Assembly (NCBI RefSeq): GCF_030811555.1
Contig: NZ_JAUSQZ010000001.1
Span: forward strand, 1,426,001-1,490,000
From: Kineosporia succinea
GTDB lineage: Bacteria > Actinomycetota > Actinomycetes > Actinomycetales > Kineosporiaceae
Length of the DNA stretch: 64,000 nt
Direction of reading: 5' to 3'
The notes beneath the pieces are model-generated. The model was given only the letters and a program-made list of their open reading frames with translations. It searched no databases and had not been told where the DNA came from. A program made the position numbers and the translations under genes. Positions 5,751-12,064 of the stretch are shown piece after piece (within the stretch, counting starts at the first letter, position 1; each line of letters starts with the position of its first letter).

Positions 5751-6041
5751 TCAGCTCAGCGCACGTACCCAGAACCTCCGGGTCTTGACATCGAAAGCGT
5801 AGAGCAGGCAACGGTTCACCGAGGTCTCGGCGGCGCGCAGGGCCTGGACGCTGATCCGGCAGGCCTCCAGCAACGGGTAGCCGTAGGCGCCCGTCGAGAG
5901 GGCGGGGAAGGCCACGCTCGTCGCACCCACCTCCTCGCACCGACGCAGACTCGAGGCGTAGGCGGCGGCGAGCAGCTCGTCCGCCGGCTCGTCGACCCCG
6001 AACCGCGGCCCGACGGCGTGCACCACGTGCTTGACCCGCAC
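5751..6041 (-). pseudogene. 5'-truncated macro-domain (ADP-ribose-binding) gene
   Basis: The 96 readable residues match only the C-terminal half of a macro domain: VKHVVHAVGPRF is the mid-domain strand, and the phosphate-binding loop FPALSTGAYGYP is intact. The N-terminal half, which normally carries the GDIT segment and the Asn-rich ADP-ribose pocket, is absent. Upstream in the same frame only about 47 bases separate it from ychF, and these hold the ychF terminator. The piece is therefore a remnant left by deletion, or less likely a short protein using the GTG at 6041. An intact family member would remove ADP-ribose-type modifications. Confidence 0.7.
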
Positions 6042-7824: not shown

Positions 7825-8101
7825 TGCCGTCCACCCTCAAATCACGCGTCCCTCAGCAACACGTCGCCCGAGGTGCCCCCACCTCTTCAACTGCCGCAGT
7901 GCCCGACCTATCTCCACATCTACGAGCTCCGCGATTCGCACGCCGATGTTTTCGATTATCGTTAATCGAAAACATCACGATCCCGCCCGACTACGAAGAA
8001 GACGACCGTCGGCGCGGCCCGCCGAAATGTCACCCGTCCCGGGGACGACACCCCCGGGACCTGGTCCGAAATTGTCGGTGGCGCCTGGCATCGTGGCCCT
8101 C
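7825..8101. other. Non-coding stretch upstream of rmuC
   Basis: No convincing gene is seen. Between the array and rmuC the only structure is the AT-rich palindrome at 7945-7976. The frame of rmuC happens to be open through much of it, but the residues there look non-coding. Confidence 0.6.
7945..7976. promoter_or_regulatory. Perfect AT-rich palindrome, candidate operator
   Basis: GATGTTTTCGATTA (7945-7958) and its exact complement TAATCGAAAACATC (7963-7976) flank TCGT. The 14-bp arms are unusually AT-rich for this DNA. The core resembles operators of GntR-type repressors, but that is only a resemblance. It ends 125 bp before the rmuC start. Confidence 0.6.
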
Positions 8102-9424
8102 ATGACAACCGCGGTGGGATTCCTGCTCGGCCTGGTCCTGGGCCTGGCACTGGCGGCGTTCGGCGCGCGGGCGGTCTTCGCGCCCCTGATGCGCTCCCGG
8201 CAGGCCTCCCTCGAGGCCGAGCGCGACCTGCTGCGCGAGCGCATCACCGACCTCGAGGCCGCGGCCGGGCAGGATCACGAGCTGGTCGCCACGCTGTCCC
8301 CGTTGGCCGCGACGTTGCAGCGGGTCGAGAAACAGGTGGCCACGCTCGAGCGCGACCGGGTGGAGCAGTTCTCCCGTCTCGACGAGCACCTGACCGCGGT
8401 GCACGCCTCCGGCGAGTCGCTGCGCGCGCAGACGGCCGCCCTGGCCGGGGCGCTGCGCTCCCCCACATCTCGCGGTGCCTGGGGCGAGGTGCAGCTGCGC
8501 CGGGTGGTCGAGCACGCCGGCATGCTGCCGCGCGTCGACTTCGTCACCCAGGCCTCCGGCACCACGCCCGACGGCAACGGCGTCCGGCCCGACCTTCTGG
8601 TCAACCTGCCCGGCGGCAAGTACGTCGTGGTTGATGCCAAAGCCCCGCTGGCCGCATTCCTCGAGGCCAGCGAGAAGGGTGAGGCCGCTCTGAGCGCCGC
8701 GGCGGGAGCGCACGCCAAGGCCCTACGGGCACACGTCGACGCCCTGGCCGCGAAGGAGTACTGGACCGCGTTCCAGCCGACCCCGCAGCTGGTGGTCTGT
8801 TTCGTGCCGGGCGAGGCGTTCCTGGCGGCCGCCTGCACCGCCGACCCGAGTCTGCTCGAGCACGCGATGGCCCGCCGCGTGGTGCTGGCCACGCCCACCA
8901 CGTTGCTGGCCCTGCTCCGCACGGTGGCCCTGACCTGGCAGTCCGAGGCGGTCAGCGGCAACGCCCGGCACCTGCTCGAGATCGGCACCGAGCTCTACCG
9001 CCGCCTGTCCGGTCTCGGGGAGCACGCCGGCAAACTCGGCCGCGACCTGCACCGCGTCGTCGAGGACTACAACGCCCTGGTCGGCACCCTCGAGCGCCGG
9101 GTCTTCGTCACCGCCCGCAAGATGCAGGAACTCGACCTCGTCGACCACGACCTCACGGCGCTGACCCCGCTCGAGTCCAGTCCCCGCCCGCTCACCGCCG
9201 ACGAGCTCATCGTCGGCGCCGCCCGGCTGCCTGACGAGTCGGACAATCGTTCGGCCGGAAGAGATCTCCGCCCCGGGAGAGCCGACCCCCGGCACCGGCC
9301 AGACCCCGCCGCCGAGCAGCTCGAGCCCGACGCCCTCACCCCAGGCGCGCCCGATGCTAACTCCCTCGGCACCGACGCTCTCGCCGCCAGCACTTTTGAT
9401 CCGGATCGCTGGGCACCTCGCTGA
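8102..9424 (+). CDS. rmuC: DNA recombination protein RmuC
   Basis: 440 residues. An N-terminal membrane helix (about 3-25) is followed by a coiled coil (about 30-125) and the nuclease-like RmuC domain (about 125-370), with GAWGEVQLRRVVEHAGM and the catalytic-core-like strand VVVDAKAPL. RmuC limits recombination at inverted repeats and acts in DNA-damage tolerance. The C-terminal 60 residues are low-complexity and acidic. The ATG at 8102 places the membrane helix at the N-terminus as in the family; no good ribosome-binding site is visible, and a GTG lies three codons upstream. Confidence 0.92.
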   Translation: MTTAVGFLLGLVLGLALAAFGARAVFAPLMRSRQASLEAERDLLRERITDLEAAAGQDHELVATLSPLAATLQRVEKQVATLERDRVEQFSRLDEHLTAVHASGESLRAQTAALAGALRSPTSRGAWGEVQLRRVVEHAGMLPRVDFVTQASGTTPDGNGVRPDLLVNLPGGKYVVVDAKAPLAAFLEASEKGEAALSAAAGAHAKALRAHVDALAAKEYWTAFQPTPQLVVCFVPGEAFLAAACTADPSLLEHAMARRVVLATPTTLLALLRTVALTWQSEAVSGNARHLLEIGTELYRRLSGLGEHAGKLGRDLHRVVEDYNALVGTLERRVFVTARKMQELDLVDHDLTALTPLESSPRPLTADELIVGAARLPDESDNRSAGRDLRPGRADPRHRPDPAAEQLEPDALTPGAPDANSLGTDALAASTFDPDRWAPR

Positions 9425-9620
9425 CCGACTAGCCGGCCGTACTGCTCCGGCCAGGGCGGGCAGTGCGGACTGCGGCGGCGGCCGGGGAGCTGCGCTGGTA
9501 GACCGGTAGGCAGGGCGTCACGCAGTCAGGGCGTCGCGGATGTGCCGATCCTGAACATGGCATCCGGGTCGGTAGCCGGTACGAATTGATCATCACTCCC
9601 CTGAGCGAAGGACGACACCC

Positions 9621-10751
9621 GTGGCCAAGATCCTCATGGTGCTCAGCGCGGCCGACAGCCTGACGTTGGCCGACGGCACCTCCCACCCCACCGGTTACTG
9701 GGCCGAGGAGGTCGTGCGGTCGCACCAGGTCCTGACCGAGGCCGGCATCGCGGTCGAGATCGCGACGCCCGGCGGCCGCGCCCCGGTGCCGGATGCGGGC
9801 AGCCTGCCCGAGGGTGACGAGAACACGCCCCTCTTCCGCGCCTACCTCGACTCGATCGACGAGGAGCTCGAGCACCCGAAGAAGCTGTCCGAGGTCTCCG
9901 GTCCGGACTACGACGGCGTCTACGTACCGGGCGGCCACGCCCCGATGACCGACCTGATCGACGATCCCGACCTGCGCCGTCTCCTCACCCGCGCGGTGGC
10001 GAAAGACCAGGTCGTGGCCACCCTCTGCCACGGCGCCGCGGCCCTTCTCAGCGCCACCACCACCGACGGCGGCTTCGCCTTCGCCGACCGCCGGATCACC
10101 GCCTTCACCGACGAGGAGGAGAACACCGGCGGCCTGGGCGAGCGCAACCCGTGGTTCCTCGAGACCCGCCTCAAAGAGCTGGGCGCCGCCCTGGAGACCG
10201 GTGCGGCCTGGAGCGACACGGTCGTGGTGGACGGCAAGCTGATCACCGGCCAGAACCCGCAGTCCAGCCTCAGCACCGCCAAGGCCGTGGTCGAGGCCCT
10301 GAAGGAGATCCCCAACGGCACCGCCCGCGACCTGCACGGCGCCGCGCACATCCGGCGCTACCGCGAGACGAAGGGCGCCGACGGGCACGACTGGCGCTAC
10401 GGCACGACGATCCTGCTGCTCGACAGCATCGGCAACAAGTCCGGCGAACAGCGCACCCACGCCCTGATCTACCGGCCCTGGAACGGGGCCTACCTGGTCG
10501 TCGCGTCGAAGGGCGGCGCCGACGCCCCGCCCGCCTGGTCACTCAACCTGAAGGCGACCCCGGACACGCAGATCCAGGTGAAAGACCAGATCGTGCCGGT
10601 GCGCGCCCGGGTGGCCACGCCCGACGAGAAACCCGCCATGTGGGCCGAGATGACCGACGCCTGGCCGGATTACGACGACTACCAGGCCCGCACCGATCGT
10701 GAGATCCCGATCGTGGTCCTGGAGCCGACCGGCGCGGCCCGACCCGCCTGA
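9621..10751 (+). CDS. DJ-1/PfpI domain fused to a deazaflavin-dependent (Ddn-type) reductase domain
   Basis: 376 residues, two domains. Residues 1-228 are a DJ-1/PfpI protein of the Hsp31/class I type: Glu29/Glu30 in GYWAEE, the nucleophile Cys136-His137 in ATLCHGAA, and the Hsp31-like segment LTGQNPQSS-type (LITGQNPQSS here). Such proteins act as glyoxalase III or chaperones. Residues about 240-376 match the F420-dependent nitroreductase (DUF385/Ddn) family: HIRRYRETKGADGHDW, the strand LLLLDS followed by NKSGEQRTHALIY, VVASKGG, PAWSLNL and the ending REIPIVVLEP. The fusion suggests combined detoxification of reactive carbonyls and a reduction using F420H2 or flavin. The GTG start follows AAGGA. 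It is monocistronic. Confidence 0.88.
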   Translation: MAKILMVLSAADSLTLADGTSHPTGYWAEEVVRSHQVLTEAGIAVEIATPGGRAPVPDAGSLPEGDENTPLFRAYLDSIDEELEHPKKLSEVSGPDYDGVYVPGGHAPMTDLIDDPDLRRLLTRAVAKDQVVATLCHGAAALLSATTTDGGFAFADRRITAFTDEEENTGGLGERNPWFLETRLKELGAALETGAAWSDTVVVDGKLITGQNPQSSLSTAKAVVEALKEIPNGTARDLHGAAHIRRYRETKGADGHDWRYGTTILLLDSIGNKSGEQRTHALIYRPWNGAYLVVASKGGADAPPAWSLNLKATPDTQIQVKDQIVPVRARVATPDEKPAMWAEMTDAWPDYDDYQARTDREIPIVVLEPTGAARPA

Positions 10752-10846: not shown

Positions 10847-12064
10847 TCAGGCCTGAACCATGCCGTGCGGATCGATCACGTACTTCTTCGGCGCGCCCTT
10901 GTCGAAGTCGGCGTATCCCTGTGGGGCCTCGTCGAGCGAGATCACCTCGGCATTGACCGCTTTCGCGATCTGCACCTTGTCATGGAGGATCGCCCGCATG
11001 AGCCCGTAGTTGTACTTCATCACCGGGCACTGACCGGTCACGAACGACAGCGACTTGGCCCAGCCGGTGCCCAGCGAGAGCGACAGCGACCCGACCTTGG
11101 CGGCCTCGTCGACACCACCCGGGTCACCCGTGACGTAGAGCCCCGGAATGCCCAGCGCCCCACCGGCGGCGGTGATCTCCATCAGCGAGTTCAGCACGGT
11201 TGCCGGGGCTTCTGCCCCCGAGCCGTCGCCGTGACCACGGGCCTCGAAGCCCACGGCGTCCACCCCCGCGTCCACCTCCGGCACCCCGAGGATCTGCTCG
11301 ATCTGGTCTTTCGGGTCGCCCTGCGACACGTCGACCGTCTCGCACCCGAAACTCTTGGCCTGCGCGAGCCTCTCGGCGTTCAGGTCACCCACGATGACCA
11401 CGGCCGCTCCGAGCAGCTGGGCCCCCACGGCCGCGGCCAGCCCGACCGGCCCGGCCCCCGCGATATACACCGTGGAGCCCGGTTTCACGCCGGCGGAGAC
11501 CGCCCCGTGGTAACCCGTCGGGAAGATGTCGGAGAGCATCGTGAGATCGGTGAGCTTGGCCAGCGCCTGGTCCTTGTCGGGGAACTTCAGCAGGTTGAAG
11601 TCGGCGTACGGCACCATCACGTACTCGGCCTGACCGCCGACCCAACCGCCCATGTCGACGTACCCGTAGGCCGCCCCCGGACGGGCCGGGTTCACCGTCA
11701 GGCAGATCCCGGTCTTGCCCTCCTTGCAGTTGCGGCAGCGTCCGCAGGCGATGTTGAACGGCGTCGAGACCAGGTCACCGACCTTGAGGAACTCCACGTC
11801 GGGCCCGACCTCGGCCACCTCGCCGAGGATCTCGTGACCGAGCACCAGGTTCGGCGGGGCGGTGGTGCGGCCGCGCACCATGTGCTGGTCGCTGCCGCAG
11901 ATGTTCGTCGTGGCGACCTTGAGAATGACGCCGTGGTTGCATTTTCGGCCGACGTTGTCGGGATGCACACCCGGGCCGTCCTGCAGTTCCAGCTTGGGGT
12001 AGGCGATGTCCTGGACCTCGACCTCGCCGGGCCCGATGTACGCAACGCCTCGGTTGCCTGCCAT
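10847..12064 (-). CDS. fdhA: Glutathione-independent formaldehyde dehydrogenase
   Basis: 405 residues, a zinc-dependent medium-chain dehydrogenase that oxidises formaldehyde with NAD without added thiol, of the Pseudomonas putida PFDH type. Catalytic zinc ligands are Cys56 (ICGSDQH) and His77/Glu78 (GHEILG). Structural zinc cysteines are at 107, 110, 113 and 121 (CGRCRNCKEGKTGIC). The Rossmann loop is GAGPVGLAAA. The long insertion typical of PFDH is present, so it is not a mycothiol-dependent FDH. The ATG follows AGAGG. It is monocistronic between two hairpins; cytoplasmic formaldehyde detoxification is the likely job. Confidence 0.93.
   Translation of the reverse strand: MAGNRGVAYIGPGEVEVQDIAYPKLELQDGPGVHPDNVGRKCNHGVILKVATTNICGSDQHMVRGRTTAPPNLVLGHEILGEVAEVGPDVEFLKVGDLVSTPFNIACGRCRNCKEGKTGICLTVNPARPGAAYGYVDMGGWVGGQAEYVMVPYADFNLLKFPDKDQALAKLTDLTMLSDIFPTGYHGAVSAGVKPGSTVYIAGAGPVGLAAAVGAQLLGAAVVIVGDLNAERLAQAKSFGCETVDVSQGDPKDQIEQILGVPEVDAGVDAVGFEARGHGDGSGAEAPATVLNSLMEITAAGGALGIPGLYVTGDPGGVDEAAKVGSLSLSLGTGWAKSLSFVTGQCPVMKYNYGLMRAILHDKVQIAKAVNAEVISLDEAPQGYADFDKGAPKKYVIDPHGMVQA

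Follow-up and report, generated by a model that had tools for sequence, protein, structure and literature searches.

DJ-1-type enzymes, which render reactive products of sugar breakdown harmless, and enzymes using F420, a rare cofactor, both belong to common kinds of stress-protection enzymes, and the natural substrates of DJ-1 glyoxalases and F420H2-dependent reductases are often unsettled. Gene fusions are clues to activities that are used together. In Kineosporia succinea, whose genome of 8.07 Mb is one contig, a single open reading frame encodes a DJ-1/PfpI domain followed by an F420H2-dependent reductase domain of the Ddn type, and the questions are whether this frame is a genuine gene, how far it is distributed and what the two activities would do in one protein. 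The frame lies in a stretch of 64,000 nucleotides, called the window here, and all positions are counted from its first letter. The window genome is designated G000 and the five other Kineosporia genomes G001 to G005.

The fused gene and its DJ-1/PfpI half

The fused gene and the elements of its first part are as follows.

9580..9586, + strand: TACGAAT, a possible promoter -10 element
9607..9612, + strand: GAAGGA, a plausible ribosome-binding site 8 bases ahead of the GTG
9621..10751, + strand: fused DJ-1/PfpI and F420H2-dependent reductase gene, 376 amino acids, GTG start, stop included
9621..10310, + strand: DJ-1/PfpI (Hsp31-like) domain, residues 1-230
9705..9710, + strand: Glu29-Glu30, with Glu30 as the candidate catalytic acid
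10026..10031, + strand: Cys136-His137, the nucleophile elbow
10116..10121, + strand: Glu166-Glu167, candidate third member of the Cys-His-Glu triad of class II Hsp31

The gene is a single frame of 376 codons without an internal stop, from the GTG at 9621 to a stop that ends at 10751, and its third-codon-position G+C of 0.95 is inside the range of the surrounding called genes. The sequence-only reading of this locus, which had described an uninterrupted frame with both domains and had assigned them to the DJ-1/PfpI and F420/Ddn families, is borne out on both counts, the family names by Pfam and NCBIfam scores above the cut-offs. At the position of the putative ribosome-binding site, which was picked from the sequence, GAAGGA is also found upstream of the fusions of G005 and G002, AAGGAA in G003 and AAGGAG in G001. 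The putative -10 element, taken from an alignment of the upstream DNA, occurs in four of the five fused loci and is absent from G003. A consensus scan gave no sigma-70 promoter and no terminator, and nothing convincing was found when a LysR-box palindrome was sought in the upstream DNA alignment. In G003 (L006/L163), short tandem repeats lie directly upstream of the fused gene and lengthen the open frame by in-frame R-Q-L-T-A repeats.

The N-terminal half scores 55.2 bits with Pfam DJ-1_PfpI (PF01965, cut-off 26.6) over residues 30-225, and the closest solved structures are 1u9c and 4p5p. The NCBIfam equivalog model of the HchA glyoxalase III (NF003168) matches residues 3-227 with 101.8 bits, which does not reach its cut-off of 365 bits. 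The candidate catalytic residues were compared in an alignment of 28 DJ-1 proteins, consisting of 3 fused proteins and 25 of the 78 stand-alone relatives described below, picked for spread. Glu29-Glu30, Cys136-His137 and Glu166-Glu167 are invariant (28/28), an invariance favoured at Glu29 and Glu166/167 by two of the six fetching patterns (HPTGYWAE and AFTDEEEN), which cover these residues, while Glu30, Cys136 and His137 lie outside all six. Glu30 aligns with a Glu in both 1u9c and 4p5p. The same is true of Glu166/167, which would correspond to Glu170 of the yeast protein. Membership of the DJ-1/PfpI superfamily is indicated by the PF01965 score above the gathering cut-off together with the invariant elbow Cys136 and Glu30, and His137, directly after the catalytic Cys, is a feature of Hsp31 class II. 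The positions of Cys136-His137 and Glu29/30, which had been named beforehand as those of an Hsp31-like domain, are thus confirmed by the alignment.

Class II Hsp31 proteins are described as having a Glu as the third member of the triad, and the Hsp31 glyoxalase III as using Glu30 and Cys138 (PMC4021431). PfpI of Pseudomonas aeruginosa is described as a methylglyoxalase (PMC11987610), and the conversion of methylglyoxal by DJ-1 proteins as independent of GSH (PMC4021431, PMC11987610). As judged from the alignment, the catalytic residues retained in the fusion are the Glu-Cys-His set of glyoxalase III.

An AlphaFold2 model of the full fusion, made with 28 sequences, has a mean pLDDT of 80.7 and a pTM of 0.68, with block values of 87-98 in the DJ-1 half and 38-82 in the Ddn half. 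Foldseek places the DJ-1 half among Hsp31 chains, 4p5p and 1u9c.

The Ddn-type half and its F420 pocket

The second half contains the following features.

10314..10748, + strand: Ddn/FDOR-A-type F420H2-dependent reductase domain, residues about 232-376, recognized by PF04075, TIGR00026, 3r5l and other structures, and Foldseek
10431..10454, + strand: G-N-K-S-G-E-Q-R (residues 271-278), equivalent to Ddn G53-R54-K55-T56-G-Q-P-R60 at the F420 glutamate tail, with Asn at the R54 position
10509..10511, + strand: Lys297, equivalent to Ddn K79 (F420 phosphate), a Lys in the window alone among the fusions
10662..10682, + strand: W348, Y351 and Y354, equivalent to Ddn Y130, Y133 and Y136

Pfam F420H2_quin_red (PF04075) matches residues 243-369 with 125.3 bits (cut-off 22) and NCBIfam TIGR00026 gives 91.9 bits (cut-off 46.35). 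The closest solved structures are those of Mycobacterium tuberculosis Ddn, 3r5l, 3r5p and 3r5r, with an identity of 44% to 3r5l. When modelled alone, this half has a mean pLDDT of 59.3, and it is poorly modelled because only three sequences of the Ddn half were used. In a Foldseek search with this low-confidence model, the first 16 rows are all Ddn/FDOR-A F420 proteins, with TM-scores of only about 0.5 to 0.6.

The residues of Ddn that contact F420, including K79 by the phosphate, were taken from section 8 of PMC3267046. The contacts K55, T56 (as Ser), R60, S78, W88, N91, Y133 and Y136 are kept in all five fusions known from Kineosporia. The position of R54 is Asn in all five; that of K79 is Lys in the window and either Asn (three) or Ala (one) in the other four; and that of Y130 is Trp in the five fusions as well as in 16 close stand-alone relatives. 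These 16 relatives, which are all 15 Ddn-half matches of the class search plus G039 from the relatives search, have Arg54 in 16/16, Lys or Arg79 in 15/16 and R60 in 13/16. Rows with identical segments were removed from the alignment, for example L146, a copy of L011. Among 18 more distant relatives Lys79 is found in one, so a Lys at the K79 position is not shared across the family and is not diagnostic. Concerning the loss of F420-binding residues, which the sequence-only reading had named as a finding that would speak against it, the alignment gives a divided answer, as most of these residues are retained and two basic ones, R54 and K79, are altered. The description of a complete Ddn domain is correct as to length in comparison with stand-alone Ddn relatives. 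However, the changes at R54 and K79 suggest that the affinity for F420 may be reduced, and binding that is likely but perhaps weakened argues against a simple "complete F420 reductase". Judged from these residues, binding and use of F420 by the fusion are likely. CofD, a gene of F420 synthesis, is above the cut-off in all six Kineosporia genomes, as compared with 3/14 named genomes used as a control. FDOR-A enzymes are described as reducing quinones, enones and enals (PMC8498797).

The same alignment raises an alternative, namely a loss or change of cofactor in the Ddn half, which would bind F420 only weakly, bind FO, F420-0 or a flavin in its place, or help the DJ-1 half as a structural or membrane-docking module. 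Asn at R54 in 5/5 fusions and Asn or Ala at K79 in 4/5, unlike in the 16 close stand-alone relatives, are in keeping with such a change. Nevertheless, it is unlikely, as K55, S56, R60, W88, N91 and Y133 are retained, as 17/18 distant relatives, putative F420 users themselves, also have no Lys79 at this non-diagnostic position, as Kineosporia has CofD and as the Ddn half is under purifying selection.

A close stand-alone Ddn relative has a TetR regulator and an MFS transporter as its neighbours in L153 (5010-7704) and also in L158, L159, L160 and L161, that is, in five genomes of one family. This set has the composition of a regulator, an efflux transporter and an F420 reductase; the domains were checked in L153.

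Origin and distribution of the fusion

10308..10325, + strand: junction I230-P-N-G-T-A235

The full-length fusion is present in five of six Kineosporia genomes, the window genome and four others whose proteins are 78-82% identical to that of the window, which excludes an error of assembly. The junction is identical in 5/5 fusions, with no insertion or deletion, and the linker between the two halves is practically nil. Near this point the stand-alone DJ-1 relatives mostly end and the stand-alone Ddn relatives start, which indicates that two entire proteins were joined end to end. In trees of each half (40 rows and 120 rows) the five fusions constitute one clade with a support of 100/100, so that one origin suffices. 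The ratios of dN/dS, calculated by the Nei-Gojobori method with a custom script for the 10 pairwise comparisons among the five fusions, are 0.11-0.41 for the DJ-1 half and 0.17-0.40 for the Ddn half. By this measure of codon change, both halves are under purifying selection. The concern, raised with the sequence-only reading, that an error of sequencing or annotation had united two adjacent genes was examined, and the fusion stands: it occurs in five genomes with the same junction and in one 100/100 clade in both trees, and this explanation was rejected, its probability being negligibly small.

In the sixth genome, G004, the place of the fusion between rmuC and fdhA is taken by a small gene that encodes a Polyketide_cyc2 domain. 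A separate stand-alone DJ-1 protein of 34-36% identity is found in each of G001 to G005, and none was found in the window genome at E up to 1e-10.

In samples of genomes that overlap and each include the window's own genome, fused matches were found in 5/58 of the relatives (E up to 1e-20), 5/13 of the family (E up to 1e-15) and 5/396 of the order (E up to 1e-60), all of them Kineosporia, and in 1/394 of the class (E up to 1e-40) and 1/396 of the phylum (E up to 1e-50), both times the window's own genome. Consequently, no fusion was found outside Kineosporia in the relatives, family, order, class and phylum samples searched, with at most 4 or 5 candidates scored per genome in the order, class and phylum searches, so that weak or reversed fusions could escape there. 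A pattern search of genome contigs matched 473 stretches, 416 of them relatives, and the best 80 of these 416 comprised 2 fused genes (K. mesophila and K. rhizophila, the same as those of G002 and G001) and 78 stand-alone DJ-1 genes. Among plasmids, 736 of 72,556 records matched and none had a single place covering at least 80% of the fusion query. Among viral contigs, 2 stretches (patterns of the Ddn half) and 20 stretches (patterns of the Ddn-half alignment) were found and none was confirmed.

A split operon as the precursor of the fusion was also sought, over all open frames of 60 amino acids or more in the loci, and was rejected. No Ddn match lies near the stand-alone DJ-1 genes in the 78 fetched loci (from the best 80 of 416 relatives) or in 26 shorter DJ-1 loci (L113-L138), and no DJ-1 match near the stand-alone Ddn genes in 16 loci, so the pairing of DJ-1 and Ddn is without support from that side. 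The opinion that the fusion is not a described enzyme agrees with the literature, as no paper on a DJ-1 and F420 reductase fusion was found in open-licence PMC texts, among the matches listed. What is new is the combination of domains; both families are well known, and the combination is limited to one genus as far as sampled.

Neighbourhood, possible function and related systems

7946..9424, + strand: rmuC (PF02646), upstream neighbour, context only
10847..12064, - strand: fdhA, glutathione-independent formaldehyde dehydrogenase family (TIGR02819), convergent, context

The fdhA gene, with 749.9 bits against a TIGR02819 cut-off of 636.95, lies downstream of and convergent to the fusion in 5/5 fused loci. 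Its presence in 6/6 Kineosporia genomes, including the one that lacks the fusion, means that it may have nothing to do with the fused gene. On the upstream side, a divergent LysR gene adjoins the fusion in 3/5 fused loci (K. rhizophila, K. mesophila and G003), and in the window rmuC stands in its place. A LysR orthologue (E up to 1e-50) was found in three of the six Kineosporia genomes only, and none in two of the five fused genomes, including that of the window; G001 and G003 carry in addition a LysR paralogue of 44% identity. Relatives of the K. rhizophila LysR (41-61% identity) flank 28 of the 78 stand-alone DJ-1 genes from the best 80 of 416 relatives (divergently upstream in 16, upstream in the same orientation in 5 and downstream in 7), and none was found in the flanks of the other 50, as searched by tblastn at E up to 1e-20 in fetched flanks of up to 5 kb. 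LysR beside 3/5 fusions and 28/78 stand-alone genes suggests that the DJ-1 half probably came with an already existing LysR partnership.

Thirty-five of the same 78 DJ-1 genes (best 80 of 416 relatives) are preceded on their own strand by an aldo/keto reductase gene, in 34 cases within about 100 bases; four weaker matches elsewhere in DJ-1 loci were left out of this count. The enzyme belongs to PF00248 (one tested), and the nearest NCBIfam model is PRK10376, with 256 and 249 bits against a cut-off of 280 (two tested). Nearly all 35 loci are from Micrococcaceae, and as close kin they are nearly one observation, not 35. They give a hint that DJ-1 proteins of this kind work beside a reductase.

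Thus this DJ-1 subfamily (L035-L112, best 80 of 416 relatives) has two alternative neighbourhoods, LysR in 28/78, in Streptomyces and others, and aldo/keto reductase in 35/78, mostly Arthrobacter-like. In the same set, four LysR-linked loci also have a weak aldo/keto match, 15/78 have neither neighbour, and 29/78 have a luciferase-like oxidoreductase of the MsnO8 family (one protein tested) on the opposite strand. L065, recorded as part of a metagenome-assembled genome of an Acidobacteria bacterium, may be a mis-binned contig: its DJ-1 gene nests within the Arthrobacter group in the tree, and its aldo/keto reductase shares 84% identity with the Arthrobacter oryzae enzyme. Elsewhere in the window, a frame of 96 amino acids (5751-6041, - strand) has a match to the Macro domain (PF01661, 118 positions) that is confined to positions 55-117. 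It may be either a truncated piece or part of a gene with its first half in a different frame.

The favoured explanation, which is given about an even chance of being right, is that the fused protein would be a bifunctional detoxifier of electrophiles, in which a glyoxalase III and an F420H2-dependent enone/quinone reductase are made together and have independent sites. An Hsp31-type DJ-1 gene, of the kind often found with LysR, and an FDOR-A gene would have been joined end to end, once in the Kineosporia lineage. The N-terminal half would convert methylglyoxal or glyoxal to hydroxy acids without a cofactor, by means of Cys136 as the nucleophile, Glu30 as the proton shuttle and His137, and the C-terminal half would reduce enones, enals or quinones by hydride transfer from F420H2. 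Each active site would then most likely work on its own, next to the other, against the mixture of electrophiles that arises in one stress. The conversion of methylglyoxal to lactate is redox-neutral, and DJ-1 proteins carry it out without a redox cofactor, so the benefit of joining would be expected to be common control and equal amounts, and not electron transfer between the sites. The aldo/keto reductase genes described above indicate that the pairing of DJ-1 with a reductase exists elsewhere. Counted against this explanation are the fact that G004 manages without the fused gene, the altered R54 and K79 positions, the score below the HchA cut-off, the lack of a LysR match in two fused genomes and in 50 of the 78 stand-alone loci, the close kinship of the 35 aldo/keto reductase loci, and the negative search for Ddn and DJ-1 partners in the 78 and 16 stand-alone loci.

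A closer cooperation has also been considered, in which the two halves form one pathway: the F420H2 reductase would act on a substrate (quinone, enedione or enal), the DJ-1 cysteine would handle the product of this step or the precursor, and the short junction would hold the sites together. Such a pathway would suit the practically absent linker, the invariant junction and the presence of DJ-1 genes of this kind beside a reductase. It is, however, unlikely, since no common substrate is known, since the low pLDDT of the Ddn half leaves no model of an interface, and since the related stand-alone DJ-1 genes have no Ddn neighbour. Its most specific version, a new composite detoxification reaction in place of two separate ones, is distinctly unlikely; here an ortho-quinone, enedione or enal, for instance, would be reduced with F420H2, and what results would pass over the very short junction to the DJ-1 cysteine.

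The sequence-only reading had suggested a possible coupling of glyoxal detoxification to F420 redox, which might also drive it, or a repair of cofactors, such as F420 or flavin, damaged by carbonyls. According to the metabolomic results of PMC5865180, methylglyoxal rises in Mycobacterium smegmatis under pretomanid, a drug that uses up F420H2 when it is activated, so the themes of F420 and methylglyoxal meet in physiology; these results concern drug-treated cells, not the fused enzyme. In view of the redox-neutral and GSH-independent conversion of methylglyoxal by DJ-1 proteins, and as neither the sequence nor the context gives a pointer to cofactor repair, this proposal is very improbable.

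The fusion suggests that DJ-1 glyoxalases and F420H2-dependent reductases answer the same stress in actinobacteria, and this can be tested on a single protein. It does not reach far, as it concerns one genus, one origin and ordinary parts, and its interest is real but modest.

In comparison with known systems, the DJ-1 half has the same fold and the same candidate catalytic residues as the Hsp31/HchA proteins (E. coli HchA and yeast Hsp31), but the fusion scores below the HchA equivalog cut-off and has an additional domain. The stand-alone DJ-1 proteins of Streptomyces scopuliridis (L038) and Actinocorallia populi (L035), with 61-63% identity over residues 1-229, have the same catalytic residues and a LysR relative of 52-57% nearby, whereas they end near the junction, have no reductase domain and show no Ddn match in the fetched flanks. 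On the other side, M. tuberculosis Ddn (3r5l, 44% identity) is of the same family as the Ddn half but is unfused. The stand-alone FDOR-A/Ddn relatives L011/L146 (64-66% identity) are also of this family and have most F420 contacts in common with the fusion, while such relatives are unfused and differ by their Arg54 (16/16) and Lys/Arg79 (15/16). Finally, a precedent for DJ-1 joined to a second domain is given by PDB 3fse, a two-domain protein with a DJ-1/ThiJ/PfpI-like and a ferritin-like domain, although the partner there is ferritin-like and here of the Ddn type.
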